Assembly: GCF_009720625.1 (NCBI RefSeq)
Contig: NZ_CP046266.1
Span: 498,501 to 562,500, forward strand
Length of the DNA: 64,000 nt
Source: Metabacillus sediminilitoris
GTDB lineage: Bacteria > Bacillota > Bacilli > Bacillales > Bacillaceae
Direction: 5' to 3'
In this document: positions 29,587 through 50,338 of the stretch, piece after piece
Layout: each line of letters starts with the position of its first letter
Numbering within the stretch: the stretch's first letter is position 1
Notes under the pieces: model-generated
Database searches by the model: none
What the model saw: the letters and a program-made list of their open reading frames with translations, nothing else
Told to the model about the DNA's origin: nothing
Made by a program: the position numbers and the translations under genes

Positions 29587-29670
29587 GATCGTTCACTCCT
29601 TAAGGATTAATCTATTTTTCACTTATGAATGCAGAATAGAAGGGGGCCTTTCCCAGTTAGCAGGTCGTTT

Positions 29671-29790
29671 TATCAGCGAACGCTGATATATTTTAGATTT
29701 CGCTGATATATTTCCGAATTTCGCTGATATATCAAAATTTTCGCTGATATAATGAAAAAATCGCTGATATTTCTTTGATATTGCTGTTTA
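29671..29790 (+). repeat. 20-bp-period array A (CGCTGATAT motif) at left island edge
   Basis: Begins with the palindrome TATCAGCGAACGCTGATA (29671-29688) then CGCTGATAT at 29681, 29701, 29722, 29742 and 29762, separated by 11-12 variable AT-rich bases, with a decayed copy near 29782. Its first 24 bases (29671-29694) are identical to 45012-45035. Confidence 0.85.
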
Positions 29791-29843
29791 TTAACGTGCA
29801 GTCATCCCCTAGATAGAAGGTGAGAGATAACTGCCCATAAAAT
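29791..29843 (+). repeat. degenerate copy of the ACGGGCAGT hairpin element
   Basis: TTAACGTGCAGT ... GAGATAACTGCCCATAAA, matching the outer arms of the element at 34275-34351 with two changed bases and a shortened inside. Directly after array A. Confidence 0.55.
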
Positions 29844-29860
29844 CTATTTATGACAGCATT

Positions 29861-31039
29861 TTAGCCGCCAATATTGATTTGTTTATTATCCCAAACCTTG
29901 AAATTTGTAATTTGGCTGTTTGAATAGATCCCGAATTTCCCGTTCACAAATGTATTATCAGATATCGTAAAATCTTTTAAGAGATGGTTTGAGATATTGT
30001 TTGTAATGGCAACAATCGAAGACTGCTTATAGTTTCCCTTGATTCCATTTTCAAGGTGATTTCCAACTATTTTGATATGACTAGCGTTGGCTATATCAAT
30101 AATTCTCCCGAAATTGCCAATCCCGCTTATTTTATTGTTTTCGATCGTTGTGTTGTCTGCATATACCGAGATCGCAGCCCACATATCATATTTTCGATTT
30201 GATGAATAGGTCGTATAATAATTATTTTCATCAAAGCCATTATAGATTTTATTTTCTTTTATAAGAACTCCTGGGGATTGGATCTTAATGGCTCGTTTAT
30301 AATTATAATGAAAGGTATTGTTCAGAATTTGAGCATCAACTGGTTCTTCAAACCCTTGTATGACAATGCCATCTCCATCATCTTTTGGACCTATTTTTGT
30401 AAAGGTTGAGTTGCTGATTTTTATATGTTTACTTGTTTTTTGTTTTGCATTTGCTGGGCTTATTAATATCCCTCTTGCGATAAGATGATCCCAGCCTTTT
30501 ACCGGGTTCTTTGCCATAACATTTTGGATCTTATTCTTTTCTAAGGTAATATGTTTTGTTCCGCCTTCAATTCTAATCGCACTGACTGTTAATCGGTTTA
30601 ACTCAGGGTCATCCGGTTGTGTAAAGTTATGAATACGACTATTCGTAATTTCAATATCAGCGGATCCATTAGCAATTGTCAATCCTCGTAATGATAAAAA
30701 ATTTCCATTTATCGTTAAGTTATCAATGGAAATATTCCTTCCTTTAATTTTAAAAACAGTTAACATGTCTGAAGCTGCTTTTATGCTCGCATTTTTCCCA
30801 TCGATTTCTGTATGATCTCCAATATGTAATTCCTTTGTGATTTTATATTCGCCTTCAGGAAAATAAATTTTATGGTTAGCACCTTGCTGTAACGCCCTCT
30901 GTATGGCTTTTGTATCATCAACAACCCCGTCACCAACAGCTCCATAATCTTTGACGTTAATTACACTGAAATTGAGCTTAACCAAAATAACCAAAACGAC
31001 GAACAAGAGTGCAAAAATAGTTAATTTTTTTTTCACCAT
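29861..31039 (-). CDS. secreted right-handed beta-helix protein (pectate-lyase-like)
   Basis: 392 residues; ATG 31039 or GTG 31036 after AAGGAG. N-terminal signal/anchor helix (~5-24), then VKDYGAVGDGVVDDTKAIQRAL, the hallmark of the pectate_lyase_3/phage tail-spike-type beta helix, followed by many repeating N/I/T-rich coils (ITNSRIHNF, ISNSTFTKIG, IENNKISGIGNF). Such proteins bind, cleave or epimerise polysaccharides outside the cell. Close to a hyaluronan operon, so a role in capsule processing is possible but not shown. First gene of the accessory island. Confidence 0.8.
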   Translation of the reverse strand: MVKKKLTIFALLFVVLVILVKLNFSVINVKDYGAVGDGVVDDTKAIQRALQQGANHKIYFPEGEYKITKELHIGDHTEIDGKNASIKAASDMLTVFKIKGRNISIDNLTINGNFLSLRGLTIANGSADIEITNSRIHNFTQPDDPELNRLTVSAIRIEGGTKHITLEKNKIQNVMAKNPVKGWDHLIARGILISPANAKQKTSKHIKISNSTFTKIGPKDDGDGIVIQGFEEPVDAQILNNTFHYNYKRAIKIQSPGVLIKENKIYNGFDENNYYTTYSSNRKYDMWAAISVYADNTTIENNKISGIGNFGRIIDIANASHIKIVGNHLENGIKGNYKQSSIVAITNNISNHLLKDFTISDNTFVNGKFGIYSNSQITNFKVWDNKQINIGG

Positions 31040-31500
31040 GAAACTCCTTTTCTTATTTAATACTTTTAATAGTATTCTACATTTCTATTAATACCCTTAT
31101 AGATAAATGATTTCATAATTTGTGCTGAAATATTGTCCTTCTTCTAAATTTTTAGGATGATTTCCTTACATTGTTTCTCTTGATTTTAATATTTGGGATG
31201 CAGTGATAAATATATTTGTCTATTTCTAAGTATTCTGATGCATATTAAAAAGTTATTAAAAAAAAGAAAATTATTTTTGGCAAAAGCATAAGACCTTTTG
31301 ATTAAATTTTCCTTTCAATAGTTGTTTAGGAAAATTAACATAGCGGCTCGATGCAAATGATAGAGTGATTATCTAAAATTTTATGAATAAATTGTCCCTT
31401 TTATGAATCCAAGACAAAAGACTACTTTTCATAAAATGACCCCATCTTTAGAAGTAATTGAATTAAAATGATGTTGAACTTTGAAGAAGGAGGAAAATGA
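31040..31500. other. intergenic region between divergent surface genes
   Basis: 460 bp, AT-rich, holds the divergent promoters of the beta-helix and acyltransferase genes. Two similar words TTTTATGAAT at about 31379 and 31399 are seen; nothing else is supportable. Confidence 0.35.
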
Positions 31501-32625
31501 ATGTCTAATATAACTACTATTCATCCCAGCCAAAAAAATAAGAAATATATTTATGAAATTCATTTTTTACGTGCCTTTGCTTGTCTTGCAGTTGTTGGTG
31601 TACATGTTTCAGCTACAAATTATGGGATGAATGAAGACACATGGAATTGGTTTACTTATTTTCTAAATCAAATTGGCCGATTTGGCACCCCGATTTTCGC
31701 TGTTATTAGTGGGTTTCTTCTTTTCTATCAAGTGAAAAGAAGAGGTTTTGAGTTAGGGCATTTCTTTCAATCTCGTTTAACAAAGATTTTATTTCCATTC
31801 CTTATTTGGAGCTTGGCCTACAGACTTCTTCTATACGTGTATGATAATCAATCACTCGGTGATCTTGGAGCGGAAGTCTTGAAAATTGTTACCGGAAATT
31901 CTTTTTATCACCTATATTTTGTAGTGATTGTTATCCAATTCTATTTTATCTTTCCTTTTCTGCAAAAGATTTTTCGAACCCAGACCTTTTTGCTGATCCT
32001 GACATTTGTTTCGTTGTTAATAAGCTATAATCTTTATGGCTTTAATCCAGGTTTAGAAGGACCGCTAGGGGAATTTTTAGCTAGTAAATCATTTATGCCT
32101 ATCTGGATCTTTTACTTTGCTTTTGGCGGTTTTCTCGCTTACTTTTGGGATGAAATTGTCCAATTTGCCACAAAGCGTCCATGGAAAATGCTTGTGTTAG
32201 CTTTGATTCTTTCAGCTGGTGCAGTTGTGGAGTATACGATAAATGGTTATGTTGCAAATAATAGACCGTCAAATTTGATCAATATACCATTGCTTTGTAT
32301 TGCTGTGATTGGAATGTATCCGTTGCTTTCTAAATGGAATGTTTTAAAGAAGCCTTTAACATTAATTGGACAATACTCAATGGGTATCTACTTGATTCAC
32401 CCTATGATCTTATATCTGTTTGCAAGACATTTACCAGAACAATATTGGCATGTAAATTACGTACCCGCTATGTTTATAGCTGTTATGCTCATTGCAGTCA
32501 TTTTTATTCGAGTCGTTCAAATGATCCCATTTAGTAGTTTTGTGATCCCGGTGCCCAAAATCAAAAAGGTAAAGAATGTTTCACCGCCAGAAGAAGGGAA
32601 CCTGGAAAAAAAACAGCTTGCCTAA
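31501..32625 (+). CDS. membrane acyltransferase (acyltransferase-3 family)
   Basis: 374 residues, about ten membrane helices. N-terminal EIHFLRAFACLAVVGVHVS contains the catalytic-type histidine of the family; RFGTPIFAVISGFLLF and the C-terminal IGQYSMGIYLIHPMILYL are typical. Members transfer acetyl or succinyl groups to extracellular glycans (IcaC, OatA membrane part, YkrP/YfiQ in Bacillus). Likely decorates a surface polysaccharide. Good AGGAGGA site; own terminator. Confidence 0.88.
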   Translation: MSNITTIHPSQKNKKYIYEIHFLRAFACLAVVGVHVSATNYGMNEDTWNWFTYFLNQIGRFGTPIFAVISGFLLFYQVKRRGFELGHFFQSRLTKILFPFLIWSLAYRLLLYVYDNQSLGDLGAEVLKIVTGNSFYHLYFVVIVIQFYFIFPFLQKIFRTQTFLLILTFVSLLISYNLYGFNPGLEGPLGEFLASKSFMPIWIFYFAFGGFLAYFWDEIVQFATKRPWKMLVLALILSAGAVVEYTINGYVANNRPSNLINIPLLCIAVIGMYPLLSKWNVLKKPLTLIGQYSMGIYLIHPMILYLFARHLPEQYWHVNYVPAMFIAVMLIAVIFIRVVQMIPFSSFVIPVPKIKKVKNVSPPEEGNLEKKQLA

Positions 32626-32696
32626 TTTATACAAGGTGAGAGGAGATAAAAGATTCATCATTTCATTTGAATTTGCATATAAATATCGAGGAAAAT

Positions 32697-32730
32697 AAAA
32701 TAGGTACCCTTTTGGTACCTATTTTATTTT
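32697..32730. terminator. terminator after the acyltransferase gene
   Basis: Perfect 12-bp stem AAAATAGGTACC / GGTACCTATTTT, 5-nt loop, T-rich on the + side. Confidence 0.9.
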
Positions 32731-32955
32731 CTGTAATTTTAATCTTGATAGTACCTAAGTGATAATATTTCTTTACATCTTAGTAAAAATGAACAAGAAA
32801 TGACCGATATAGTAAGTGAGAAAGACTCATAGAATGATGAATAAATATTTTAGTTCATTTACACTTATTAAAAATATGTTTAACATAGTCGTTTTTCGTT
32901 TAATAATTACGTAATACTATTAGTAAAAGACACCAAAAAGAAAGCAGGAAATTAT

Positions 32956-33072
32956 ATGGCGACATTTATGGAAATTTTCCATTTTATTTTTACTTGGATG
33001 CATATTTTTGTATTAATTATAGGTTGCGTTTTCATCTATTATCAAATTTTCGCAAAAAGCAAAAAATCTTAA
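32956..33072 (+). CDS. possible 38-residue membrane peptide
   Basis: ATG 32956 follows AGCAGGAA. Product MATFMEIFHFIFTWMHIFV continues as one hydrophobic span (LIIGCVFIYY) and ends in a basic tail FAKSKKS, a normal orientation signal for a single-pass peptide with N-out. It converges with the glycosyltransferase gene, overlapping its end by 4 bp. No family recognised. Confidence 0.4.
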   Translation: MATFMEIFHFIFTWMHIFVLIIGCVFIYYQIFAKSKKS

Positions 33073-34235
33073 AGACTGTAGTAAAGACGGGAAAAGATAT
33101 GATCAATATATTGAACACGCTTGTTTATTGTCCGTTTTGTCATTCTATTGAAAATAAACTCAGCAACCTCTTCACAACTATTTATCTCAATATCGCTAAG
33201 GAAAAGGTGCATTGATTTTCTTATATCAAATAATGCAATAGGATTATTGAGCACTGACAATATTTGTTCTTCTATTAACATATTATTGTTTAATTTTCTT
33301 ACTAGTCCACGTTTAGCAAGGTAGTCCATATTTACTTCTTCCTGTCCTGGAAGTACAGAATGGATGAAAATAGGAAGTTTCTTTTTAATGGCTTCGCTAA
33401 TTGTAACACCACCAGGTTTTGTAATAAGGGCATCTGCCCAGTTGTATAAATGATTCATTTGTTCAGGGCTTGTAATATAAGAAAAAGGTTTAATTGAATC
33501 GCTATTTAAAGAATCAATCTCCTCATACAATTTGCTGTTTGAACCACATAGGACACGATATTCAACTAATTTGCTATCTACACAATCCTTGAGGGAAGAT
33601 AGCTGTTTTCCGAGCCCCAAGCTGCCTCCAGCAACTAGAATATGAACTTTCTCTTTTTCCGACTTTTCCTTTTTTCGTTTTAAAAATTTATCGTTTGTCA
33701 CAATTCCCGTAATTAGAATGTTTTCCTCAGGAATAGAGGCCTTTATCAATTGCTCCTTTGTATCTTTGGAAGGAACTAAGTGCATATCAATATGCGTTTT
33801 ACCCCATAAATCATTTATGAAAAAATCAGTATATACATTTACAACAGGAATTTTACATACACCGTATTCTTTAAGTTTATTGACGAGAAAAGAAGGGAAG
33901 CTATGTGTACAAATAATTAAATCGGGCTGTTTCTGCTCGATCAGCTGCTCCATTTTCTCTAAAAAGATTGCTTCATATGTTGATTGAAGAATTTTTGACT
34001 CCTTGTTAAAAAATTGATTGTAAAAAGTACTATATACGGAGGGGATATTATTAATCCAATTTAAATACAAGTGAGATATAAATTTTTCGATCCCCGAATT
34101 CATATAGCTTAAAAAATCTACCTTTTCACATTGCATATAAGGGTCATGTTTTTTTAATGATTCCATTAGTGCATTAGAACTTCGGTGATGACCAGATTCC
34201 ATTGTAAAAAGAGGTAATAACAATATCTTTTTCAT
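33069..34235 (-). CDS. MGDG-synthase-like glycosyltransferase (GT28, UgtP type)
   Basis: 388 residues after a GGAGGATAA-type site. N-terminal MGDG_synth domain with LLLPLFTMESGHHRSSNALM, where GHHRSS is the family signature, and C-terminal nucleotide-sugar domain with VAGGSLGLGKQL and the GPGG-like TKPGGVTISEA and PGQEEVNMD motifs. Relatives transfer glucose or galactose to diacylglycerol, or act on peptidoglycan precursors. In the island it may make a glycolipid for envelope or capsule anchoring. UgtP itself is normally elsewhere; substrate not certain. Confidence 0.83.
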   Translation of the reverse strand: MKKILLLPLFTMESGHHRSSNALMESLKKHDPYMQCEKVDFLSYMNSGIEKFISHLYLNWINNIPSVYSTFYNQFFNKESKILQSTYEAIFLEKMEQLIEQKQPDLIICTHSFPSFLVNKLKEYGVCKIPVVNVYTDFFINDLWGKTHIDMHLVPSKDTKEQLIKASIPEENILITGIVTNDKFLKRKKEKSEKEKVHILVAGGSLGLGKQLSSLKDCVDSKLVEYRVLCGSNSKLYEEIDSLNSDSIKPFSYITSPEQMNHLYNWADALITKPGGVTISEAIKKKLPIFIHSVLPGQEEVNMDYLAKRGLVRKLNNNMLIEEQILSVLNNPIALFDIRKSMHLFLSDIEINSCEEVAEFIFNRMTKRTINKRVQYIDHIFSRLYYSL

Positions 34236-34267
34236 ATTTATCCTCCACCATCATTATTGTTAATTTA

Positions 34268-34485
34268 TCCCACCTTAACGGGCAGTAAAACTCCCACTTC
34301 AAGATTCGAGAGAAGCAAAGAAGATAAGTGGGAGATAACTGCCCGTAAAGATCCGACGAGCGATTGACGTCCGAGTCAGGCGAAGCCACACGATGTGGCG
34401 TTTTGTGCGTGATAAGTCTCGCTAACCATCAGTGGGGGATGAAGAAAACCCCCACTGATGGAAGTCTCACTTTATCGATAAAACA
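34268..34485 (+). repeat. hairpin-rich element, full-length copy
   Basis: Outer stem ACGGGCAGT (34278-34286) / ACTGCCCGT (34338-34346) enclosing CTCCCACTT/AAGTGGGAG; then GCCACA...TGTGGC and a 13-bp stem CCATCAGTGGGGG / CCCCCACTGATGG (34427-34461); ends GAAGTCTCACTTTA. Non-coding. Related copies are at 29791, 39555 and 49912-50291. The arrangement looks like a non-autonomous, palindrome-ended element derived from the IS200/IS605 type, which is an inference. Confidence 0.6.
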
Positions 34486-34512
34486 AATGTACTGTATTTC
34501 TATATTAGATAC

Positions 34513-36831
34513 CTACAGTAATGTAGTAAGAGGCTGCCTTGCTGCTATTCTTGCAGGGAAAAAGCTTGCAAATATTCCGATTAAGATGCTAAAACCTAAC
34601 CAAAGCAGGCTTCCATTTAAGGACATCCCGGAATGAAGCGGTGAATTTAATAGGATAGATCCGATCCTTTCACTTAAATAAGTATGAAGTGGATAGGATA
34701 TGATAACGGAAAATACCCAGCTCATTCCCGCAATAAAAATACCTTCGCCAATGAACAGTTGATAAATCTTACCCTTGGAACCTCCAAGAGAGCGAATAAT
34801 TCCAATTTCTTGCTTTCTTTCAAGAACATTTATACTCATTGCCGTTGTCATATTTAGCACTCCAACGCTTGAAATGAGAATGCCGACAAAAAGAAGGGAA
34901 TAAATGATCAGTTTAATCACTTCTTCAGGACGTGAATTTATATCTTCTACCTTATCAGAGGCTTCAATAGTAATATCTTTGTCGTTAAACCAATTTTCCA
35001 CTTTATTTTGAACATCTGATTTTGAATCTTGTTTGATAAGTAAACGGTTAATGTGCTCATTATTAAGCCATTGAATATAGTCAGTTTGCGACATATAAAT
35101 AGTAGGTCCTTTTAATTGACTTTTGACGATGCCAGCTATCTTCCATTGTTTTTCCTCAATGCCAATTTGGATCGTTAAGGAGTCTCCAGTTTTTATATTT
35201 CCTAAACTCTGACTTAAATCAGAACTAATAACAATCGAATTTGGAACTTGTTTATCTAACCAATGACCTTCCAATATTTCAGGATGAATAAAATCTGTTT
35301 GAGCTGGTACAGAGTTTAATAGAACATTATGTTTTGAAGATGACTGTGAAATAATCGCATTTCTTATTGTCCATGCCTCAGCCTGTTCCACTCCGTTAAT
35401 CTCTTCTAAGGAATGTATAAGTTCTTCCTTTGGCAAAGAGGTTTGAATACTCCATTCCCGGTCATAGTTCAAAAATTGATTCATATCTTTAAGAGTCAGA
35501 AGTAAGGAATTGTTCAATGCAATACAAGCAATAATGATCGCACCGCCAAAGGATAACATTAATACGTTCGTCAAGAGTTGCCCTTTTTTTATCATCGCAT
35601 TTCGAATGGAAAGAAAGCGAAAATGAAAATATCTTTTTGAATGTTTCTTTTTTTGCTTTACAAAGGGCCTGCTAGTATTTTTAAGTCCTCTGATAACAGG
35701 TATTTTCAGCACTTTCTGAATTGGATAGGAAGCTGCTAGCATTGGAACAATAAACGATAAAATCAAGGTAAGTATTAAAACCTTTAGTGAATATGTAAAT
35801 TCTACTTTTCCTATATTTAATTCCTGAACAGTGAATTTGGAAAAATAAAATGATATGGCTCCACTTAAAGGGACAGATGTTAAAAATACAATTGATCCAA
35901 ACAAGATGAGCGTAACCGAGTATTGTTTCCAAATATGATACGATGTCGCGCCAAGAACCTTCTGTATACTAAGCTCCATAACCTGCTCTGATACAATTCG
36001 ATAAAAAAGATGGGTAATAAGTAAAAATCCAAGTAAGAATGCGACAACTCCTAATACGACTAATAAAAGGAGGATGGCATTAACAACTGTCTCGCGAATA
36101 AACAATGATTCTTCTGATAGCTCTGTTCGGGAAACAGTGATATTTTTCGTTTTTAAATCAGCTTTTGCTTCCTGGATGATTTTGTTTACTTGTGATTCTG
36201 ATTTGGACGATTCAAAGGTGACATGAATTAAATTTTTAGATGAGATCAGCCCTAAGTTTTCTAATGCATCTTCTGTTAAATAACCATAACCTAATCCGCT
36301 AAGCCTAGTAGGGATTCGATAGAAATCTTCAACTGTACCGTCAATTGAAAGCTCTTTTGTTTGTTTACCTGGAAGTGAGATCATGACATGATCACCAATC
36401 GATTGCTTAAATTGCTCCAATGTAGACTTCTCAAGAAGTAGTCCTTGACCTGAAGGAGTTAATTGACCTGCCGTACGAATTTTGTTGATTTGAAAAGGTT
36501 TATTAGCAGAATAAGCCATTAATTCAAAATTTCGAAACTCACCATTGATTTTAATCCTAGCTCTTATTTGCTGCTTTGCTTCCACTTCTTTTATGCCATC
36601 CACTTTTTCTAAAGAAGAGATATCCTCTTCAAATGGTGACGTATAAAGAGTGAGCTCAGCTGCGTTAGTGTTTTCAAGATTTTGTTGAAGCGCCTTATTA
36701 AATAGATAATTGGTATTAAGCAGAGCTCCAATCGTAGAAAGACAAATTGTAATAGAAACAAGAATAAATATTGCTCTCGTTTTCTGCTTGGTCAAATCCT
36801 TACCGGCTTTTTTCATATAGATAGGTATCAT
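34513..36831 (-). CDS. ABC transporter permease, FtsX/MacB family, two-domain
   Basis: 772 residues. Two FtsX repeats: a helix at ~20-40, a large extracytoplasmic domain, three helices at ~255-380, then a helix at ~425, a second outside domain and three helices at ~645-765; each repeat has the loop VLGATS or SLGGSK before a helix, characteristic of this family. It lacks any solute-binding partner, as usual for exporters or mechanotransmission systems. Overlaps the ATPase gene by 4 bp. In Bacillus such pairs export peptides, lipids or protect against antimicrobials. Confidence 0.88.
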   Translation of the reverse strand: MIPIYMKKAGKDLTKQKTRAIFILVSITICLSTIGALLNTNYLFNKALQQNLENTNAAELTLYTSPFEEDISSLEKVDGIKEVEAKQQIRARIKINGEFRNFELMAYSANKPFQINKIRTAGQLTPSGQGLLLEKSTLEQFKQSIGDHVMISLPGKQTKELSIDGTVEDFYRIPTRLSGLGYGYLTEDALENLGLISSKNLIHVTFESSKSESQVNKIIQEAKADLKTKNITVSRTELSEESLFIRETVVNAILLLLVVLGVVAFLLGFLLITHLFYRIVSEQVMELSIQKVLGATSYHIWKQYSVTLILFGSIVFLTSVPLSGAISFYFSKFTVQELNIGKVEFTYSLKVLILTLILSFIVPMLAASYPIQKVLKIPVIRGLKNTSRPFVKQKKKHSKRYFHFRFLSIRNAMIKKGQLLTNVLMLSFGGAIIIACIALNNSLLLTLKDMNQFLNYDREWSIQTSLPKEELIHSLEEINGVEQAEAWTIRNAIISQSSSKHNVLLNSVPAQTDFIHPEILEGHWLDKQVPNSIVISSDLSQSLGNIKTGDSLTIQIGIEEKQWKIAGIVKSQLKGPTIYMSQTDYIQWLNNEHINRLLIKQDSKSDVQNKVENWFNDKDITIEASDKVEDINSRPEEVIKLIIYSLLFVGILISSVGVLNMTTAMSINVLERKQEIGIIRSLGGSKGKIYQLFIGEGIFIAGMSWVFSVIISYPLHTYLSERIGSILLNSPLHSGMSLNGSLLWLGFSILIGIFASFFPARIAARQPLTTLL

Positions 36832-37532
36832 TGCATCCCCAATCCCTCTTTCTTGTCTTGAAACAAGGTGTTTATTACTTCTCCATCTTTTACCCTTAAT
36901 GTTCGTGTGACTTGTTTTGAAAGGTCCAGGTCATGAGTAACCATGACAATTGTTTTTCCATTCTTCACAAGTTCCTCAAACAGTTTAAATATGTGTTGGG
37001 CATTTTCACTATCTAAATTACCTGTCGGTTCATCTGCTAAGATAAGCGGTGGATCATTCGCTAACGCTCTGGCAATTGCAGCACGTTGTTTCTCTCCGCC
37101 AGAGGCATAGTCAGGAAAGAGATTCCCTTTTCCACTTAAACCAACAGACTCAAGTAAGTTCATTGCTTTTTTTTGTTTTTGCTTTTTTCGAAATGAAGAA
37201 GCAAATTCCATAGGAAGAATGATATTTTCCAATAAAGTAAGTGTTGGAATTAGGTGAAAGTCTTGAAATACAATCCCAATATTTTTTAATCTCCATTTCG
37301 TCATTTCGCGATGGGAAAGGCTAGAGATTTCAGTTCCGTTAATTTTTACAGATCCATTTGTAGGGGAATCGATTCCACTCATCAAATTAAGGAGAGTTGA
37401 TTTTCCACTTCCCGATTTCCCGATTATTCCAATAAATTCTTGTTTTTGAATCCTAAACGAAACGTTATTTAAGGCATAGTGTGGGGTATCTCCACTAGAG
37501 AAAATCTTTGATACACGTTCCAGCTCAATCAT
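36828..37532 (-). CDS. ABC transporter ATP-binding protein, LolD/MacB type
   Basis: 234 residues. Walker A GKSGSGKST, signature ASGGEKQRAAIARAL (Ser-Gly-Gly kept, first residue Ala), Walker B LILADEPTGNLD and VTHDLDL. The LADEPTGNLD form marks the MacB/LolD branch that works with FtsX-like permeases. First gene of the leftward exporter pair. Confidence 0.9.
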   Translation of the reverse strand: MIELERVSKIFSSGDTPHYALNNVSFRIQKQEFIGIIGKSGSGKSTLLNLMSGIDSPTNGSVKINGTEISSLSHREMTKWRLKNIGIVFQDFHLIPTLTLLENIILPMEFASSFRKKQKQKKAMNLLESVGLSGKGNLFPDYASGGEKQRAAIARALANDPPLILADEPTGNLDSENAQHIFKLFEELVKNGKTIVMVTHDLDLSKQVTRTLRVKDGEVINTLFQDKKEGLGMQ

Positions 37533-38188
37533 GCTCCAACACCTTTCTTAAAACAATTTTTTCTATTAAGTAAAACTTTACTAATCTCATTAAATACCAT
37601 GATTTCTCTATCTTCAAACATAGCAAAATTCGTCTGAAAGAGTTTAATAGGCATAAATTAACGGAAAATCATTAGGATTATCGTTAAAACATTTACATTT
37701 TTTACCATAAGATTGTGTTTAAAAAAAATTCATATGAAATAATCCCTATAAAAGTATCTAAATTTGTAAAAAAATGATGGTTTTTGTGTTTTTTACTAGA
37801 TAGCATTTCTTATTTTTACTGGTAATTTTAGATAATTTTTTTTATTTTCAATAAAAGTCACTTAATTGCTATTTTTCGAGTTTTTTATGTGAAGTTTTTG
37901 TTACTTTCTTTACAAGAGTTGGAAACTTCTATAAATAAAGGGGTATTTGCCCTGATAATCGTTTCTTATTCGCAAAAACCAAGAAAATGTTACAAATTTT
38001 ACATAATTTATAACGAATCAATAAGAACGCTTTCATTGTTGAGACGACAAGTGATTTCAATTGATGGGCTAAAAAGCAATGAATTTAGTCACAGGAAAAA
38101 CGACACATTGATAAAAAGAACTAAGTTTCATTAAGCTTATGATGTTGAAAAACAAGATCTTGAAATAAATTTTGAGAGGAGTGCTAGA
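37533..38188. other. long AT-rich gap before the hyaluronan operon
   Basis: 656 bp with promoters of the divergent ABC exporter and hasA. A cre-like site is annotated inside. A reading frame at 37889-38134 has no ribosome site and unremarkable composition and is not counted as a gene. Confidence 0.35.
38022..38035 (-). promoter_or_regulatory. candidate cre site (CcpA) upstream of hasA
   Basis: On the - strand TGAAAGCGTTCTTA, one mismatch to the consensus TGWAANCGNTNWCA. About 155 bp before hasA, so catabolite control of capsule synthesis is possible. Confidence 0.35.
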
Positions 38189-39541
38189 ATGGCAAAATTA
38201 GAACAAGAACTTCAAGTACCTATTTCGGCCAACGAAGATATTAGTACACAGAAGAAGTTGTCGAACAGAGAAAAAACGTTTGTTATTACATTATTTTTCT
38301 TTACTGTCGCTGGACTTTTCTTTGTTAACTGGACCGCATCTGACAAATTGAATTTAACTATCGGATTATATGGTTCAGTTATGATCGCCTACTTACTAGG
38401 AAAAATGCTTCTTTCATTTAAGTATTCGGAAGTAACAATGGACCCGCCGGATTTAAAGGTATCGGTTGTCATTCCGTCTTACAATGAAGCCCCTGAAGCT
38501 GTACTAGGAACAATCGAAAGTATTTTAAAGCAGGATTATCCCATTCATGAGATCTTTTTAGTAGATGATGGCAGCAAAGATATATCAGCATATGAAGCAG
38601 TATTAAAACTGAAGGAAAACCTTATGGGTGGATCAGGAGAACCACCAGCACTAATACCTCCATATAAAATGCCAAACTTGATCGTTCACCGACTTCCTAA
38701 AAATAAAGGGAAACGTCATGCTCAAATCTGGGCATTTGAACGTGCAACTGGTGATGTGTTTGTCACAGTTGACTCTGATTGTACAGTATTCTCAGATGCG
38801 ATTAGAGAATTATTAAAACCAATGAATAACCCGGAAGTTACTGCTACAACCGGTCATGTAAACATTAGAAATCGTACAGATAATATTCTTACTCGCTTAA
38901 TTGATATGCGCTATGATAATGCGTTTCGTGTAGAGCGTGCTGCTCACTCAGTTACAAATAATGTACTAGTATGCAGCGGTCCTTTAAGTGCTTACCGCAG
39001 AGAAGTGGTAATGAAAAACCTTGATCATTACGGTACTCAGACTTTTCTTGGCCAACAAGTGCAATTAGGTGATGATCGCTGTTTAACAAACTATGCAATC
39101 CGAGAAGGAAAAACATTATATCAATCTACAGCCCGTTGTATTACAGATGCACCAACTAGTTTAAAAACATTACTTAAGCAACAATCACGTTGGAATAAAT
39201 CATTTTTTAGAGAAAGTTTAATTGCCTTAAAAATCGGTTTGAAAAAACCTAACGTATTTATTTGGGTCTTGCTCGAAATGTTCCTTTGGATCGCTTTCGG
39301 TGTTTCATTGGTTATGGCTTTTTACATTGCTTCTACTACAATGGCCTGGGTTATCGGTATTTATTATTTAGCTTATGTCATCATTTCGGCTTATGCCAGA
39401 AACGTATTTTATGCGTATAAAAGGCCACTGACATTCTTAATGGCCCCGCTATATGGATTGTTATTCTTAATCTTGTTATGCCCTCTTCGTTTTTGGGCGT
39501 TACTTACACTTCGTTCAACTTCTTGGGGAACGAGAGGTTAA
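38189..39541 (+). CDS. hasA: hyaluronan synthase HasA
   Basis: 450 residues, GT2 family. Two N-terminal membrane helices, cytosolic catalytic domain with VVIPSYNE, LVDDGS, TVDSDCTVF, the class I hyaluronan synthase motifs CSGPLSAYRREVV, FLGQQVQLGDDRCLTNYA and QQSRWNKSFFRES, and four C-terminal helices. These motifs match streptococcal HasA closely, not chitin or cellulose synthases in general. It polymerises UDP-GlcNAc and UDP-GlcA and exports the chain. GAGAGGAG lies before the ATG. Operon with UDP-glucose pyrophosphorylase and dehydrogenase genes, which make UDP-GlcA. Confidence 0.92.
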   Translation: MAKLEQELQVPISANEDISTQKKLSNREKTFVITLFFFTVAGLFFVNWTASDKLNLTIGLYGSVMIAYLLGKMLLSFKYSEVTMDPPDLKVSVVIPSYNEAPEAVLGTIESILKQDYPIHEIFLVDDGSKDISAYEAVLKLKENLMGGSGEPPALIPPYKMPNLIVHRLPKNKGKRHAQIWAFERATGDVFVTVDSDCTVFSDAIRELLKPMNNPEVTATTGHVNIRNRTDNILTRLIDMRYDNAFRVERAAHSVTNNVLVCSGPLSAYRREVVMKNLDHYGTQTFLGQQVQLGDDRCLTNYAIREGKTLYQSTARCITDAPTSLKTLLKQQSRWNKSFFRESLIALKIGLKKPNVFIWVLLEMFLWIAFGVSLVMAFYIASTTMAWVIGIYYLAYVIISAYARNVFYAYKRPLTFLMAPLYGLLFLILLCPLRFWALLTLRSTSWGTRG

Positions 39542-39554
39542 TCGTTTATCGGTA

Positions 39555-39690
39555 TGAACGTACAGTAAATCCCCGCCTTTTAGCAAGAATAATGAAACAA
39601 AGGTGGGGGGAACTGCTTGATAATTCGGACTACCATCTTCAGGTGATGGAGAAAACCCTGCTTTATGGAAGTCTCGCTATAACTATAGAC
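39555..39690 (+). repeat. degenerate hairpin element between hasA and hasC
   Basis: GAACGTACAGT ... GAACTGC outer arms, inner stem CCCCGCCTTT (39571-39580) / AAAGGTGGGG (39600-39609), a second stem CCATC / GATGG (39632-39649) and end GGAAGTCTCGCTATA. Same architecture as 34268-34485 but diverged. It fills the hasA-hasC gap. Confidence 0.55.
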
Positions 39691-39724
39691 AATCTATTAT
39701 CTAATAAGATGGGAGATGTTTTAT

Positions 39725-40618
39725 TTGAAAATTCGTAAAGCAATTATTCCTGCTGCCGGTTTGGGAACTCGATTTCTTCCTGCCACAAAGGCACAGCCAA
39801 AGGAAATGCTGCCAATTGTAGACAAACCCACTATTCAATATATTGTCGAAGAAGCAATTCGATCTGGTATTGAAGATATCCTTATCATAAGCGGTCGCGG
39901 AAAGCGAGCGATAGAGGATCACTTTGATAAATCATATGAGTTAGAAGAAACTCTATTAAAAAAAGAAAAGTATGACAGATTAGCAGAAATCCAGGCAATT
40001 TCAAATCTTGCAAACATCCATTATATTCGTCAAAAGGAGCCTCTTGGATTAGGCCATGCCATTCATTGTGCGAGTAGTTTTATCGGAAACGAACCTTTTG
40101 CGGTGCTGCTAGGAGACGACATCGTGAAAGCAGAAACTCCTTGTCTTAAGCAATTAATTGACGTTTTTGACAAATATCAAACCTCTGTTCTAGGAGTTCA
40201 GGATGTAGATCGTAATGAAGTGTCCAAGTATGGAATTATAAATCCTCTTTCAAATAAATCGTTAGAAGAAGGTGTACTATCTCTTTCTTCAGTTGTAGAA
40301 AAGCCAGCTATTGATGAGGCGCCTTCAAATTATGCTATTATGGGACGCTATATCCTTACACCGGATATTTTTGATATTTTAGCAACTTTATCACCAGGGG
40401 CAGGCAATGAAATTCAATTAACTGATGCTATTGAAAAATTAAACGAAAAAGAAACTGTATTAGCGTACAATTTTTCTGGAAAGCGCTATGATGTCGGAGA
40501 TAAATTTGGATTCGTCAAAGCAACAATTGATTTTGCATTAGAAAGACCTGATTTAAGTGCGGATGTGAAAACATACTTACGAGATGTAGTAATGGCAAAT
40601 GATCCTATTCCTTCTTAA
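39725..40618 (+). CDS. hasC: UTP-glucose-1-phosphate uridylyltransferase
   Basis: 297 residues from TTG 39725, nine bases after GGGAG; ATG 39716 touches that site and would add three odd residues. The N-terminus [23 protein letters not shown].. (shown in part) and [27 protein letters not shown] and VEKP are the GalU/GtaB signatures. Makes UDP-glucose for the next enzyme. Housekeeping gtaB is normally elsewhere, so this is a dedicated capsule copy. Confidence 0.9.
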
Positions 40619-40742
40619 AGATACCCGGTTTATTAAAAGAAAAACGATTAGACTCCGTTGATGGCAACAAACAACGGTTAATTAGTATGTCAGCATCGTA
40701 AATAAGTTCATTTTAGAAATTCTATCAAAGGAGGAGTTTTTA

Positions 40743-42092
40743 ATGAAAATTGCGATTATCGGAACAGGCTATGTAGGATTGGTGACAGGTGTAGCTTTGT
40801 CTGAAATAGGTCACAACGTCACTTGTATTGATATTAACCCCGAAAAGATCGAACTTCTTGCAAAAGGGATTTCACCCATTTATGAACCGGGTTTAGAGGA
40901 ATTGATGGTAAAAAACATTGAGATTGGAAATCTTCAATTTACTTCAAATCATATTATCGGATTGAAGGATGCTGAAGTTGTTTATATAGCTGTAGGTACT
41001 CCACAAGGAGAAGATGGCGCAGCAGACCTTTCTTATATTTTCCAAGCTGCTCGAGATATTGGCCAAAACATTACCCGCGATGTTGTTGTTGTGACAAAAA
41101 GCACAGTTCCACTAGGTACGAACTATAAAGTGAAAGAATTAGTTTTATTAAATCTACAAGGAAATCACAGTGTCGAAGTCGTCTCAAATCCTGAATTCTT
41201 ACGAGAAGGGTCAGCTGTTTATGATTCTTTCAATGGAGATCGGATTGTCATCGGAGCAGATAATCCAGAGGCTGCTAACTTAATAGAAGAAGTGAATATA
41301 CCTTTTGGTCTTCCGATTATAAAAACAAGTATTAGTAGCGCAGAGATGATTAAATACGCAGCAAATGCATTTTTAGCAACGAAAATTTCTTTCATCAATG
41401 AAATTGCTAATCTATCTGAAAAAGTTGGTGCGGATATTAGTGAAGTTGCGAAAGGAATTGGTCAAGATGAACGGATCGGTTCGAAATTCCTTAATGCCGG
41501 CATTGGTTTTGGCGGTTCTTGCTTCCCGAAAGATACAAAGGCATTACTTAAAATTTCCGAAGAAGTTGATCATGATTTCCATCTCATTAAATCTGTTATC
41601 GATATTAATGAAAAACAAAAGATTAACCTCGTGGAAAAAGCCAAAGAACGCTTCGGGTCACTTAAAGGAAAACGAATTTCCCTGCTTGGTCTTGCATTTA
41701 AACCGGATACGGATGATATGCGCGAGGCAGCTTCAATTAGTGTTGCTAGAAATTTAATAGATGAAGGTGCTGAAGTGATTGGATATGATCCAATTGCCAT
41801 TGAAAATGCCAAGAAAGTCCTCCCAGAATCTGTTACATATGTTAACTATATTGAAGATGCGATTAAACAGTCAGATATCGTCTTCCTTTTAACAGATTGG
41901 AAGGAGATTGTTGAAAAAGCATTAATCCTATCAAGTCTCTTTATGGATCAACCGATTATCTTTGATGGTCGTAACTGTTATACAGTAGAAGCTGCAAAAA
42001 AATACCATGTTGAATATATCTCAATCGGCAGGGAACCTGTTATTCCGGATGGTAAAAAAGAGAGCAAAACATCACTTGTTGCATCTTTTTAA
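40743..42092 (+). CDS. hasB: UDP-glucose 6-dehydrogenase
   Basis: 449 residues. NAD motif IAIIGTGYVGLVTGVALSE, YIAVGTPQGEDGAAD, NPEFLREGSA, active-site GFGGSCFPKD (Cys260), and C-terminal AFKPDTDDMREA. Four-electron oxidation of UDP-glucose to UDP-glucuronate, the second precursor of hyaluronan. Strong AAAGGAGGAG site. Third gene of the hasA-hasC-hasB unit; the order differs from streptococcal hasABC. Confidence 0.92.
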   Translation: MKIAIIGTGYVGLVTGVALSEIGHNVTCIDINPEKIELLAKGISPIYEPGLEELMVKNIEIGNLQFTSNHIIGLKDAEVVYIAVGTPQGEDGAADLSYIFQAARDIGQNITRDVVVVTKSTVPLGTNYKVKELVLLNLQGNHSVEVVSNPEFLREGSAVYDSFNGDRIVIGADNPEAANLIEEVNIPFGLPIIKTSISSAEMIKYAANAFLATKISFINEIANLSEKVGADISEVAKGIGQDERIGSKFLNAGIGFGGSCFPKDTKALLKISEEVDHDFHLIKSVIDINEKQKINLVEKAKERFGSLKGKRISLLGLAFKPDTDDMREAASISVARNLIDEGAEVIGYDPIAIENAKKVLPESVTYVNYIEDAIKQSDIVFLLTDWKEIVEKALILSSLFMDQPIIFDGRNCYTVEAAKKYHVEYISIGREPVIPDGKKESKTSLVASF

Positions 42093-42150
42093 TCATAAAA
42101 ATTTAGCATTAATACAGTCAAAAAATCTTAATTTCGAAAGGGTGTAAATA

Positions 42151-42945
42151 ATGAAAAAAGTAACATCTGCTCTTTTAGTAACTGCTTTAGCTGTTAGTGT
42201 AACTGGACAAGTTTCTGCAGAGGAAATCAAACAACCTGCGCCAATTGTACAAAATGTTGATGTAAATAATCTTTGGAAGCAAATTGACACATTTCAAGCA
42301 ACAGTTGTCCTTCAAGATGAAAAGTACAAAGTTACTTACGATGACAATGATGGAATCGTTCATGTGAAAATTAAGAAGGAAACAGGTAAAGAGGAGATAG
42401 AGGTAACAGGTCAGGAAGCAAGCGACAAAGTCGTTGAATTTGTAAAAGACCTTGATTTATCAAAAAACCTAAGCAAGGAAGAAGTGATTAATCGCCTTTC
42501 AGCTGCTTTAGGTGTTGAACCTTCAGAAGTAGAAAAAGCGGATGCAGATATCACACTAACAAATCATGCAAGTGTATCATTCTCCTACAAACAAGGGGAA
42601 AAAACACAAGTAATCAATCCTTATGAGCTTCAAAAGCTAGACGCTAAACTTGAAGCGAAAGATGGAAGCTTTTATCACATTCGCTTTTTATTAAACAAAA
42701 ATGGTATCCAAGCATTAGTGAAGGAAAAGACTGAAGAGGGCTTAAAAACATTTAAAGGTACTGCTGCACTTGAAGAAATTCATCGTATAAAAGATGGTCT
42801 TATCCCAGCAAATGATACAACTTGGAATGGATATTTAGACCAAGTATCGGATGTACTAGGTGTAGAAGTAACAGATATTACAAAAGCGGATCTTAAAGTT
42901 CAATTTGCTAATAATACAAAAGTAGATGTGGATTTTAACAGATAA
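42151..42945 (+). CDS. secreted protein with two YusW-like domains
   Basis: 264 residues. Signal peptide (KKVTSALLVTALAVSVTGQVSA, cleavage near 23). Two similar units, ~38-130 and ~145-262, each ending in a GV-x-x-x-x-x-x-KAD pattern (ALGVEPSEVEKADADI; VLGVEVTDITKADLKV), as in YusW-like proteins of Bacillus. Function unknown; it is expected outside the membrane. Follows hasB by about 60 bp with its own ribosome site, possibly co-transcribed. Confidence 0.78.
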   Translation: MKKVTSALLVTALAVSVTGQVSAEEIKQPAPIVQNVDVNNLWKQIDTFQATVVLQDEKYKVTYDDNDGIVHVKIKKETGKEEIEVTGQEASDKVVEFVKDLDLSKNLSKEEVINRLSAALGVEPSEVEKADADITLTNHASVSFSYKQGEKTQVINPYELQKLDAKLEAKDGSFYHIRFLLNKNGIQALVKEKTEEGLKTFKGTAALEEIHRIKDGLIPANDTTWNGYLDQVSDVLGVEVTDITKADLKVQFANNTKVDVDFNR

Positions 42946-42957
42946 ATAATAGGTAAG

Positions 42958-42984
42958 GCGGCTTCCTGGTTGGAAGCCGTTTTT
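42958..42984 (+). terminator. terminator of the has/YusW unit
   Basis: Stem GCGGCTTCC / GGAAGCCGT, loop TGGTT, then TTTT. Confidence 0.85.
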
Positions 42985-43008
42985 GGGTGTTTGTTGGTAT
43001 ACTTTCAT

Positions 43009-43060
43009 TTCGCTACTATATTTTCGATTTTCGCTTATATATCAAATATCGCTGTTAAAT
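43009..43060 (+). repeat. decayed 20-bp-period array B
   Basis: TTCGCTACTATAT, TTCGCTTATATAT and ATCGCTGTTAAAT at 20- and 18-bp spacing, a worn version of the CGCTGATAT array. Lies between the YusW-like and YwqI-like genes. Confidence 0.6.
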
Positions 43061-43064
43061 CGTC

Positions 43065-43343
43065 CTAACGTGACTTAATAGAGGAGGAGATGTCTTGATC
43101 AACCTCTTTTAAGTTTTGTATGGTTTTAAGCACAGACTGATTATTGTCTTTTAATACATTTTTATATGTCTGACCAATCTCTTCTAACAGGTTATTTATT
43201 TCATTTAATTTTGTAACAACATCTAATTCATTCCCGCTTGCCACATCTTTCGCTAAAGTAGTTTCAAAAGCATCTGCTGCAGCTTCCATTTTAGAGACCG
43301 CATCTTCAACATCTCCATAACGAATTTTCATTTCCTGGCTCAT
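43065..43343 (-). CDS. YwqI-like (DUF5344) type VII secretion partner
   Basis: 92 residues, all helical, WXG100-sized: MKIRYGDVEDAVSKMEAAAD, then ELDVVTKLNEINNLLEEIG. Matches the YwqI/DUF5344 family, small helical proteins encoded before LXG-type polymorphic toxins and thought to form the targeting complex for the type VII secretion system. Overlaps the upstream partner by 4 bp. No LXG toxin follows: the next leftward genes are on the other strand. Confidence 0.78.
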   Translation of the reverse strand: MSQEMKIRYGDVEDAVSKMEAAADAFETTLAKDVASGNELDVVTKLNEINNLLEEIGQTYKNVLKDNNQSVLKTIQNLKEVDQDISSSIKSR

Positions 43344-43711
43344 CGTTGTTCAGCCCTTTCTCTTCTTCTTTCCATTTCAATTCGCGCTTTTTCAGCTGCA
43401 ATACTACTTTGTAAGGACTGAATTTCGGCATGAATTGCTTCGATTTTATTTTCAATCGTCGTTAATGCGTTGTTCAATTGTGTTTGTGAAATATCTTTGT
43501 AGGAAAAAGAAAGGTCTTCTCGAATCTCTTCAAATTTAGTGGCTAATGTTCCTTGCCACGTAGTTGAGGTAAGTTCTGGGTCTTTAATGAACTTTTGATG
43601 TTGAATAAATTCCGATTGCAAACCGTCTAACTTTGAGACGCAATTTTGTAATCGAATTAACTGTTCCTTTTTTTCACTTAGTTGTGATTGCAAATATGAT
43701 AAATAGGACAA
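43340..43711 (-). CDS. YwqH-like (DUF5082) type VII secretion partner
   Basis: 123 residues, two long coiled-coil helices around a short TSTTWQGTLATKFEE turn, a WxG-like element. Matches YwqH/DUF5082, the first gene of LXG toxin operons (ywqH-ywqI-ywqJ in B. subtilis). With the next gene it forms the pair that escorts the toxin to the secretion machine. Here toxin and immunity genes are absent, so the pair is an orphan or a remnant. Confidence 0.78.
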   Translation of the reverse strand: MSYLSYLQSQLSEKKEQLIRLQNCVSKLDGLQSEFIQHQKFIKDPELTSTTWQGTLATKFEEIREDLSFSYKDISQTQLNNALTTIENKIEAIHAEIQSLQSSIAAEKARIEMERRRERAEQR

Positions 43712-43852
43712 TGTTTTCAGCCCCTTATTATTTGTTTGGTCTAGTTATTATGGTATCAAATGGAAATGGATTGTATAAATAGGTAAAATCTCATAAATTT
43801 CAAGGAGCGTGAGACTTTATAATTAGCTTGCTATTACTTGTATATCGAATAT

Positions 43853-43940
43853 CGCTGATATATTTAAAATTCCGCTGATATATCTTGAAAATCGCTGATA
43901 TATTCAGATTTTCGCTGATATATCGGAAATATCGCTGAAA
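43853..43940 (+). repeat. 20-bp-period array C before the NERD gene
   Basis: CGCTGATA(T) at 43853, 43873, 43893, 43913 and a partial copy at 43933: exactly 20 bp apart, with AT-rich variable spacers. It lacks the palindromic head of arrays A and D. Confidence 0.85.
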
Positions 43941-44012
43941 TTGCAATTGAAAGGAGGAGATTACAATCTTGAAGACGAAGTAGAAAAGGAGTACAAATGT
44001 GGGAGTGATGCT

Positions 44013-45008
44013 ATGATTGTAAAAGAACGCGAAAAACCTATTTTGCTGGAACATCTAGAGGCACTGATTAGACGTTTGCATCATGATCAACAGAAACGTA
44101 GGCATGTTTTAGAGGATTATAATAAGAAGTTAAGCGGATATAAGGGAGAGTTAGCGATAAATTATCCTTTAAGCTTTCTTCGCGAAGACCAATACTTTAT
44201 TTTGCATGATGTAAGACTTTTTGATGGTTGTCATTTTTTTCAAATGGACACATTGATTGTTTCGAAGAAGTTTTTTCTTATTATTGAAGTGAAAAATATT
44301 GCGGGTACACTCACTTTTGATTCAGATTCCCATCAGTTAGTCCGTACAACAGAAGAGAAGGAAGAGGCATTTCCCCATCCTGTTAATCAAGTGTTACGTC
44401 ATCGAATGCAGCTTAAAAATTGGCTTGATAATAACGATTGCCCCTCGATCCCGATTGAAACCTTAGTTGTCATCGCAAATGAACGCTCCATCATTAAAAC
44501 TGCAAACCAACATACATTCCCCAAGCAAGTGATTCCAGCCTATATGATTCCAAATAAAATATTCGAGCTAGAGAAGAAATATTCTAATGAAAAGATAGAC
44601 GAGCTAGATATGATCATAGGTGCTCTACTTGAAGATCATGTTCCTCTCACTCCTAATCCTTTGAAAAAGTATCAAATTCAACCATCATTAGATCTTGTAA
44701 AAGGTGTACAGTGTCCATCTTGTTTAAAGTTCCCAATGAATCGAATTCATGGAAAATGGCTGTGCATGAAATGTGAGGTGAAATCAGAGAATGCGCACCT
44801 TCTTGCTTTAAAAGATTATTCTCTTTTGATTCATTCTACAATAAGCAACAAAGAGGCAAGGGAGTATTTACATGTTCTTTCACATGATGTGGTTAAAAGA
44901 TTATTTCAGACAATCGGTTTAGAGACTGTAGGAATGAACAAAGGAAGGAAGTATAAATTGAGTATAGGAGTGCTGAATAGTCTGTTAGAAAAGGGAAGAT
45001 CGACTTGA
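44013..45008 (+). CDS. NERD-domain protein (nuclease-related)
   Basis: 331 residues from ATG 44013, seven bases after GGGAG; the typical family N-terminus MIVKEREKP starts exactly there. NERD domain at ~35-150 with the nuclease-like LFDGCHFFQMDTLIVSKKFFLI (in part) and EVKN motif, the acidic/lysine pattern of PD-(D/E)XK folds. C-terminal zinc ribbon (CPSC...CMKC, about residues 240-262) and a short winged-helix-like end. Role unknown; may process DNA or RNA. Framed by arrays C and D. Confidence 0.83.
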   Translation: MIVKEREKPILLEHLEALIRRLHHDQQKRRHVLEDYNKKLSGYKGELAINYPLSFLREDQYFILHDVRLFDGCHFFQMDTLIVSKKFFLIIEVKNIAGTLTFDSDSHQLVRTTEEKEEAFPHPVNQVLRHRMQLKNWLDNNDCPSIPIETLVVIANERSIIKTANQHTFPKQVIPAYMIPNKIFELEKKYSNEKIDELDMIIGALLEDHVPLTPNPLKKYQIQPSLDLVKGVQCPSCLKFPMNRIHGKWLCMKCEVKSENAHLLALKDYSLLIHSTISNKEAREYLHVLSHDVVKRLFQTIGLETVGMNKGRKYKLSIGVLNSLLEKGRST

Positions 45009-45011
45009 TAT

Positions 45012-45131
45012 ATCAGCGAACGCTGATATATTTTGAACTTCGCTGATATATTCAAAAAAATCGCTGATATCTTCGGAATTTCGCTGATATAATTATAAAA
45101 TCGCTGATATATTCAGAATTTCGCCGATATA
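45012..45131 (+). repeat. 20-bp-period array D at right island edge
   Basis: Palindromic head TATCAGCGAACGCTGATA (45012-45029), then CGCTGATAT at 45022, 45042, 45062, 45082, 45102 and a variant CGCCGATAT at 45122, exactly every 20 bp. First 24 bases identical to array A. It starts 4 bp after the NERD gene stop and ends before recX. Confidence 0.87.
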
Positions 45132-45216
45132 CATCCTCCGCCGCACTTCCTAATTCAACTGCAGCACTTTTAATGTTATGATCGGACTAACTTCATATAT
45201 AGAAGCAGGTGAAAAA

Positions 45217-49780: not shown

Positions 49781-49867
49781 GAATGATCCTCCTAACTAAA
49801 TGGGCCAATATTTAACGTGTTATGAGAGAAAACTTTTTATTCATAGGAGCTTTACTAAATCCATAAG

Positions 49868-50291
49868 TTCAAACGAACTATTAGAGGAAAATCCCTAATA
49901 AAAGTTTCACTATTCCCCACATTAACGGGCAGTAAAAAAGATATGTGTGGAAAATAATGCTTTTTCCGCTAACTGCCCGTAAATGTCTGATTAAGTTCAA
50001 CTAACTATTAGGGGGAAAATCACCCCCTAATAGAAGTTTCACTATTCCCCACATTAACGGGCAGTAAAAAGATATGTGGGGAAAGTAATTCTGTTTCCGC
50101 TAACTGCCCGTAAATGTCCGATTATTAGGGGGGAAATCGTCCCCTAATAGAAGTTTCACTATTCCCCACATTAACGGGCAGTAAAAAGATATGTGGGGAA
50201 AGTAATTCTGTTTCCGCTAACTGCCCGTAAATGTCCGATTAAGTTCAACTAACTATTAGGGGGGAAATCGTCCCCTAATAGAAGTTTCACT
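49868..50291 (+). repeat. three tandem copies of the hairpin-rich element plus an end fragment
   Basis: An end-only piece (49868-49911) precedes units 49912-50043 (132 bp), 50044-50160 (117 bp) and 50161-50291 (131 bp). Each unit has: CCCCACAT/ATGTGGGG hairpin whose left arm leads into ACGGGCAGT; the matching ACTGCCCGT about 50 bp later; a stem TATTAGGGG / CCCCTAATA; and the end GAAGTTTCACTA. The middle unit lacks AAGTTCAACTAAC. Units 2 and 3 are nearly identical, so duplication is recent. Confidence 0.75.
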
Positions 50292-50338
50292 ATAGTATCT
50301 GATACAATATATTCATCTATTCGATTGTTTACATATAA

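Follow-up and report, generated by a model that had tools for sequence, protein, structure and literature searches.

RAYTs are HUH (Y1) transposases that go with palindromic REPs, and TubR and AspA are winged-helix proteins that bind centromere-type arrays and have no nuclease. Here we analyze a window of 64,000 nucleotides from Metabacillus sediminilitoris (contig NZ_CP046266.1, positions 498,501 to 562,500; positions below are those of this whole stretch unless the genome or a locus is named), in whose 5.6-Mb, single-contig genome a gene of the NERD nuclease family stands between two arrays of 20-bp tandem repeats. We find that such arrays accompany one subfamily of NERD genes and that arrays with a 52-bp period accompany another. 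In Bacillus, two classes of constant-length repeats, of 20-21 and 52 nt, have been described with no known role (Subirana and Messeguer 2021, PMC8161180). The passages of that paper used here state that nothing points to the action of a Cas-like protein on the 52-nt repeats, name no partner protein, and propose nucleoid proteins or a small RNA as the explanation. The word nuclease was not found in the examined passages of two related repeat papers (PMC8625621, PMC6749651). A link between NERD and repeats did not appear among the titles and listings returned by a literature search, and among the papers listed by an exact-letter search for the repeat unit none deals with it, judged by title.

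In the window, array C (43841..43938, plus strand) consists of units TCGCTGATATAT spaced at 20 bp (z = 8.2 at lag 20) and ends about 75 bp 5' of the start codon of a long-type NERD gene (44013..45008, plus strand, 331 aa). Array D (45009..45131, plus strand) opens directly after the stop codon of this gene with an inverted unit, which we call the head, and continues with 20-bp units that share the motif and orientation of array C (unit similarity between C and D of 0.85 in the same orientation and 0.50 in the opposite one). The same head is found at array A (29669..29780, plus strand), at the left edge of the insertion described below and a dispersed copy of the motif flanking the NERD gene, which was identified by Tandem Repeats Finder (TRF) and a unit scan. 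The limits given by TRF are 29681-29770 for A, 43848-43938 for C and 45021-45131 for D, with 4.4-5.5 copies, and each 20-bp unit holds a conserved core of about 10 bp.

To assess the generality of this arrangement, we surveyed the genus. All 21 genomes have NERD matches to the window protein, at 1-10 per genome, mostly multicopy and some broken. We fetched 68 NERD loci, leaving aside weak and fragmentary matches, and scored periodicity in the 450 bp upstream and 350 bp downstream of the gene, where a pass means z>=5 (at lags of 19-22 bp for long genes). The genes were classed as 46 long, 10 short and 8 broken, i.e., 64 loci including the window and the loci L092 and L097. Seven of the 68 fetched loci lacked a tblastn match and lie outside these classes; they were later recovered as short NERDs, and L227, first classed as short, is a broken gene in three pieces. 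The controls were 325 open reading frames (ORFs), each 200 aa or longer, taken from these NERD loci and from the recX loci. We found a 20-21-bp array in the flanks of 42 of the 46 long genes (40 upstream, 12 downstream), against 13 of the 325 controls; as Fisher p values treat genes as independent, they serve as a guide only. The long genes occupy 11 synteny positions, and an array-bearing gene is found at every one of them. Many of the long genes have an upstream array whose end lies 55-125 bp from the start codon, and in some the distance is 150-290 bp. One NERD-adjacent array (L153:2590-3399, in G007) has a higher-order period of 103 bp over its 21-bp units.

The short NERD genes encode proteins of about 300 aa and have a different array. 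At 13 of 16 in the genus, a 52-bp array stands 3' of the stop codon, and this period was found upstream of four and downstream of two of the 325 control ORFs. The 52-bp lag is seen at none of the 46 long genes and the 20-bp array at none of the 16 short ones. The two classes of array are not swapped in the genus. The array adjoining the short NERD gene of the M. sediminilitoris genome (z = 13.3) has seven relatives elsewhere in the genome that are 67-87% identical. In G004, a short NERD gene (L231) and its array form a block of 1.57 kb with TTTGG at both ends; the sister species G001 and G012 have empty sites, in which the flanks of the block run on without it. Beside this block lies GTGCCTGTCACCACCCGG (L231:4974-5030), a sequence that recurs at several sites in G001, G012 and G002.

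The pattern extends to the order, where PF08378, the Pfam family of NERD, occurs in 89 of 101 genomes. We sampled 60 loci, i.e., one match per genome for 50 genomes and ten further short candidates, taken among the best matches listed, and obtained 39 long genes, 15 short ones and six belonging to neither subfamily. Among the 38 readable long genes, 29 pass at lags of 19-23 bp (30 of 39 with L276, which has runs of N and where TRF gives a 21-bp unit). All 15 short genes have a 52-bp array in one or the other flank, stronger upstream at L316 and reported by TRF only at L319, which has N runs. One of the six genes outside both subfamilies has an array: L267 (in G105), with 21-bp units upstream (z = 7.2), is possibly a third NERD branch. 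Control ORFs were drawn outside the 4.9-kb NERD loci, within which no other ORF qualified. Arrays of 20 bp were found at five of 82 ORFs from NERD-bearing genomes and at three of 133 from NERD-less ones, and 52-bp arrays at none of either. In a small comparison of array density, two 20/40-bp arrays were found in 238 kb of eight NERD-less genomes versus five in 152 kb of NERD-bearing genomes of the order; the 375 kb of Metabacillus stretches around recX have 15 arrays, of which two adjoin NERD genes.

We identify the arrays linked to NERD genes with the two orphan constant-length classes of Subirana and Messeguer (2021, PMC8161180), as these are set out in the passages used here. The two sets are alike in unit length, non-coding position, species-specific motifs, many dispersed copies and a short conserved signal. 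Arrays A, C and D, with their period of 20 and 4.4-5.5 copies, have the length and copy number of the 20-21-nt class, and the several non-coding arrays with a common short signal of that class have their counterpart in at least 16 arrays in this genome. The 52-nt class, with units of 51-53 nt in species-specific families, corresponds to the arrays of the short NERD genes in both genus and order. Some published repeats can be placed directly: TCGCGG, the signal reported for B. weihaiensis, recurs as the motif flanking the NERD gene L197 on both sides, the B. litoralis family 42_52_9 matches the units after L193 (0.85, shuffled maximum 0.60), and the B. litoralis family 77_52_5 matches those after L200 (0.94) and L194 (0.92; shuffled maximum 0.54). 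Family 22_52_12 gave no match above chance. The difference lies in the partner: these passages name no protein, and in our data each class goes with a single NERD subfamily.

The window protein belongs to the NERD family (PF08378, E = 2.2e-20, 73.7 bits against a cut-off of 22.1). Its fold and motifs suggest a PD-(D/E)XK-like nuclease core, a CxxC...CxxC zinc ribbon and a C-terminal winged-helix-like domain. AlphaFold models of the long and short NERD proteins (mean predicted local distance difference test scores of 96.5 and 92.9, respectively) display the nuclease core, the zinc ribbon and C-terminal helices with short strands. In alignments, from which genes with internal stops were omitted, residues G42, G45, E46, D79, K94, G98, P123 and Q126 do not vary among the 81 long NERDs and E92 is present in 80 of them, a conservation that points to a catalytic role. 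The weak matches of a Foldseek search against the PDB (a restriction endonuclease, Bax1, McrC, the endonuclease of an R2 retrotransposon and Can2-type proteins) point to PD-(D/E)XK enzymes. TubR and AspA are also among the weak matches of the long model, with E of about 0.23-0.3 and to a part of it only; repeated DNA sites are a further point in common. The fold and motif of Y1 HUH proteins were not seen: Pfam gives NERD alone in the window protein, and the weak fold matches are to enzymes of the restriction-endonuclease type.

The array motif varies with the gene it accompanies. Of 26 genes with arrays on both sides, 25 have flank units that are more alike in the same orientation than in the opposite one (mean 0.77, against 0.55 between different genes). 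Thirteen genomes share one synteny position, at which the units are, depending on the species, TCGAAGATAAA-, TCGCGGATAAA- or TCGAAAATAAA-like and mostly alike on both sides. Across 52 dispersed arrays, the similarity to the NERD motifs of the own genome was 0.747, versus 0.657 for other genomes (permutation p = 0.0002), in a set biased by the inclusion of loci fetched by the CGCTGATA pattern; when the window genome is excluded, 38 dispersed arrays give 0.731 versus 0.662 (p = 0.001). Among 68 long NERDs, the similarity of the motifs is correlated with that of the proteins. The partial correlation with the motif, the rest of the protein being held out, is 0.253 (p = 0.002) for the winged-helix-like part and 0.037 (p = 0.25) for the nuclease.

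Many arrays lie away from NERD genes. A pattern of two units occurs 45 times in the M. sediminilitoris genome and the same pattern read backwards does not occur at all, so the pattern is not due to chance. At least 16 arrays with CGCTGATAT-like units are scattered in the genome (in the window and ten fetched regions). They sit between the larger ORFs, some can be crossed by short ORFs, and their orientation relative to the neighboring genes is inconsistent. We considered that dispersed arrays might be footprints of lost NERD genes and rejected this, there being no NERD match within the ten dispersed-array regions. One of the arrays (L108:9824-10192, genome 4963123-4963491) has 18 units built of 40-bp dimers that are 96% alike, a higher-order repeat that may reflect recent growth. 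At another site, near 1.716 Mb (genome 1715948-1716214), the corresponding gap in G009 and G013 displays a few GGACAATAAA-like units by eye, with weak scores at lags of 19-22 (z of 2.5 and 3.5) and a 41-bp lag of z = 5.3 in G013. In the window genome, the GGACAATAAA motif accompanies a further NERD gene (L164), and it is also found by eye upstream of L182 in G013. A possible swap of motif at the 1.716-Mb site in G009 and G013 is a lead.

We propose, with a probability of roughly 0.7, that these NERD proteins are nucleases with cognate, dispersing repeats, somewhat like the RAYT/REP pairs. That the pairing of NERD and array is functional is very likely. From the adjacency, the period proper to each subfamily, the common motif and orientation of the flanks, the likeness of dispersed arrays to them, the covariation with one domain of the protein, the conserved residues of catalytic type and the single case of presence and absence, we infer binding, cutting, autoregulation and spread of the arrays as follows. 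Arrays C and D with the gene between them would form a two-part unit, in which a NERD nuclease recognizes the tandem repeat beside its gene. Cutting or nicking of DNA would fall to the nuclease core, and the C-terminal winged-helix-like domain would read the repeat; that this domain recognizes its own motif is likely, given the covariation of their sequences. A spacing of two helical turns (20-21 bp) or, in the short subfamily, of five (52 bp) would place several molecules on one face of the DNA, and the upstream array of long genes might double as the operator of the gene. Cleavage and repair at the arrays could then expand, move and overwrite them in trans, making a spread of arrays by the nuclease plausible. 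By such overwriting, dispersed arrays would take the motif of the NERD genes of their own genome, as REP sequences depend on RAYT, and array A would be one such dispersed copy, as would the remaining arrays that have its motif. The two systems have in common a nuclease-type chromosomal gene, largely vertically inherited and flanked by copies of a short repeat, which also occurs on its own at scattered sites. They differ in that NERD has a PD-(D/E)XK-like fold, a zinc ribbon and a winged-helix-like part, and in that its repeats are tandem arrays of fixed period. More tentatively, and with rather less than even confidence, we suggest that the two orphan repeat classes of Bacillales are the substrates of two sister NERD subfamilies that copy or overwrite arrays in trans, such that a change in the DNA-reading domain would convert arrays genome-wide in a PRDM9-like turnover, with the period set by the subfamily.

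Several observations weigh against this proposal. Most long genes have the upstream array alone, which is the pattern expected from an operator. Four of the eight broken NERD copies pass the array test and four have no array. Nine of the 38 readable long genes of the order fail at lags of 19-23 bp, four of these misses (L274, L287, L292 and L294) having a period of 41-42 bp, and three of the 16 short genes of the genus (L195, where TRF gives a 51-bp unit, L202 and L223) fail the 52-bp lag test. Beyond the order, a search at E<=1e-20 of 149 genomes sampled from the phylum found a short NERD in the window's own genome and in none of the other 148. One other published 52-nt family (PMC8161180) scored 0.53 with L307, where shuffled sequences reached 0.54. 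Foldseek found nothing in the PDB at E<=0.001. The covariation with the motif is shared by the stretch 176-230 before the zinc ribbon (0.151, p = 0.002), and in a smaller set of 29 dispersed arrays the own genome ranked first among 21 for ten and tenth or worse for seven. NERD genes are often fixed, one position accounting for 14 loci and another for 13, so that their mobility is low, and the empty site of L231 could result from a loss in the sister species rather than a gain in G004. The array-density comparison with NERD-less genomes is also small.

The NERD unit lies at the right-hand end of a 15.6-kb insertion that separates yfhF from recX and includes three clear 20-bp arrays (A, C and D) and a degenerate fourth (43011..43059, plus strand; three units at <=2 mismatches in the unit scan, between the YusW-like and DUF5344 genes). 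A sequence-only reading of the window had described this insertion, with array A 85 bp from the yfhF start and array D ending 86 bp before recX, and these points are all borne out. It had further reported identical 24-base heads of A and D in the same orientation. The head of A is indeed at 29671-29694; that of D had been placed one base off and is at 45011-45034. The 18-bp palindrome noticed in the head is present in the form of an 8+2+8 inverted repeat, TATCAGCG-AA-CGCTGATA. This 18-base core has three exact copies in the genome and recurs in further arrays with one or two mismatches, so A and D are not the only arrays with such a head. As also noted in that reading, no integrase or transposase is seen among the ORFs of the insertion, ten of whose 12 genes were covered by the Pfam scan. 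A CRISPR array was ruled out: the conserved core is about 10 bp of a 20-bp unit, and the ten scanned proteins include no Cas match. An Rfam scan of positions 29000-46000 returned no family reaching its gathering score.

We compared the junction in the 20 other genomes of the genus, using 18-20 kb upstream of recX (5 kb in G013). The insertion is missing from all of them, i.e., one genome of 21 has it, and the CGCTGATAT unit was not found in the fetched stretches either. In 16 relatives yfhF adjoins recX; in G008 and G017 an amidohydrolase gene does, and no yfhF match was found there. In G011 and G016 (L092 and L097), yfhF was not found and recX is preceded by a decayed NERD gene, itself preceded by a CGCTGAAAA array with a period of about 20 bp. 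The upstream array thus persists in these two genomes although the gene is decayed. The question had been raised whether genomes without the island keep a single array at the junction; TRF found the other 18 junctions free of arrays. As G011 and G016 have NERD and array before recX without the island, the NERD gene at this site is probably older than the remaining island genes, and the upstream array was probably retained with a different motif.

Other explanations can be set against these data. The arrays beside NERD genes could be operators only, serving autoregulation, with dispersed arrays that regulate other genes or are passive copies and a nuclease activity unrelated to them. The place of many arrays 55-125 bp before the start codon would suit a promoter, and upstream arrays far outnumber downstream ones at long genes (40 versus 12 of 46). 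We nevertheless regard it as unlikely, because the arrays of short NERD genes stand 3' of the stop codon, dispersed arrays have no consistent orientation to their neighbors, and residues of catalytic type are invariant or nearly so. NERDs might instead be defense nucleases, with arrays that act as self-marks, as decoys or as reservoirs in which the nuclease is kept until foreign DNA enters. Their multicopy and partly broken genes would fit, as would the weak matches that the nuclease domain has to BREX PglW and MADS MAD6 in defense libraries. These matches are far below the family cut-offs and mostly limited to the shared nuclease domain, the motif differs among species, and no further defense gene belonging to the unit was recognized in the window, which makes a defense role quite improbable. 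It is very unlikely that the arrays are structural sites of a nucleoid protein, with NERD adjacent for other reasons. This idea is published, in the consulted part of PMC8161180, and both periods are whole numbers of helical turns. It does not account for the adjacency (42/46 versus 13/325), the period specific to each subfamily, or the paucity of arrays in NERD-less stretches (two in 238 kb, against five in the 152 kb of NERD-bearing genomes and 15 in the 375 kb around recX).

The least probable account, to which we give hardly any credence, is one raised by the sequence-only reading, in which arrays A and D are the recombination ends through which a gene-capture island of 15.6 kb was gained. 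It agrees with the presence of the insertion in this genome alone and with the related edge arrays in direct orientation. Its difficulty is that C and D are the partners of the NERD gene itself, and that G011 and G016 have NERD at the same place without the rest of the island. It also implies that arrays mark variable segments. We examined this for two arrays, by comparing a 14-kb query around those at 1.716 and 1.720 Mb of the genome with seven relatives. The genes flanking the first are adjacent in 7/7, which contradicts the expectation. Those flanking the second (genome 1720367-1720574) are adjacent in three (G001, G012 and G013), the right-hand gene being elsewhere in the other four; hence this site is variable and speaks for capture. 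With one variable site among two arrays checked for synteny, capture is unsupported as a rule.

The remaining genes of the insertion (29781..43840) stand outside the nuclease-array unit. They encode pectate-lyase-like, acyltransferase, MGDG-synthase-like glycosyltransferase, FtsX ABC transporter, GT2, galU-like, UDP-glucose-dehydrogenase-like, YusW, DUF5344 and YwqH-like proteins. Positions 38189-42945 hold an operon-like run of GT2 glycosyltransferase, galU-like, what we take to be UDP-glucose-dehydrogenase-like, and YusW-like genes, which looks like a polysaccharide locus of the hyaluronan or uronate type. The DUF5344 and YwqH-like genes (43065-43711) are presumably partners of LXG-type secreted proteins, and no such protein was recognized beside them. 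Outside the insertion, a 117-bp tandem repeat with 3.4 copies (49864-50293) is of a kind unlike the 20-bp arrays. The island is real and, so far as examined, ordinary; the notable part is the array-NERD-array unit and its generality.

The fixed-length repeats of 20-21 and 52 nt, so far called enigmatic, thereby gain a candidate partner family, whose two branches fit the two lengths. With such a family named, a single protein and a single DNA are enough to put the question of these repeats to a bench test. If the nuclease does spread the repeats, NERD and its arrays would be a domesticated pair of nuclease and repeat built on a fold unlike that of the RAYT proteins, and the family would be a source of sequence-specific DNA-reading domains with the likely target written beside each gene.

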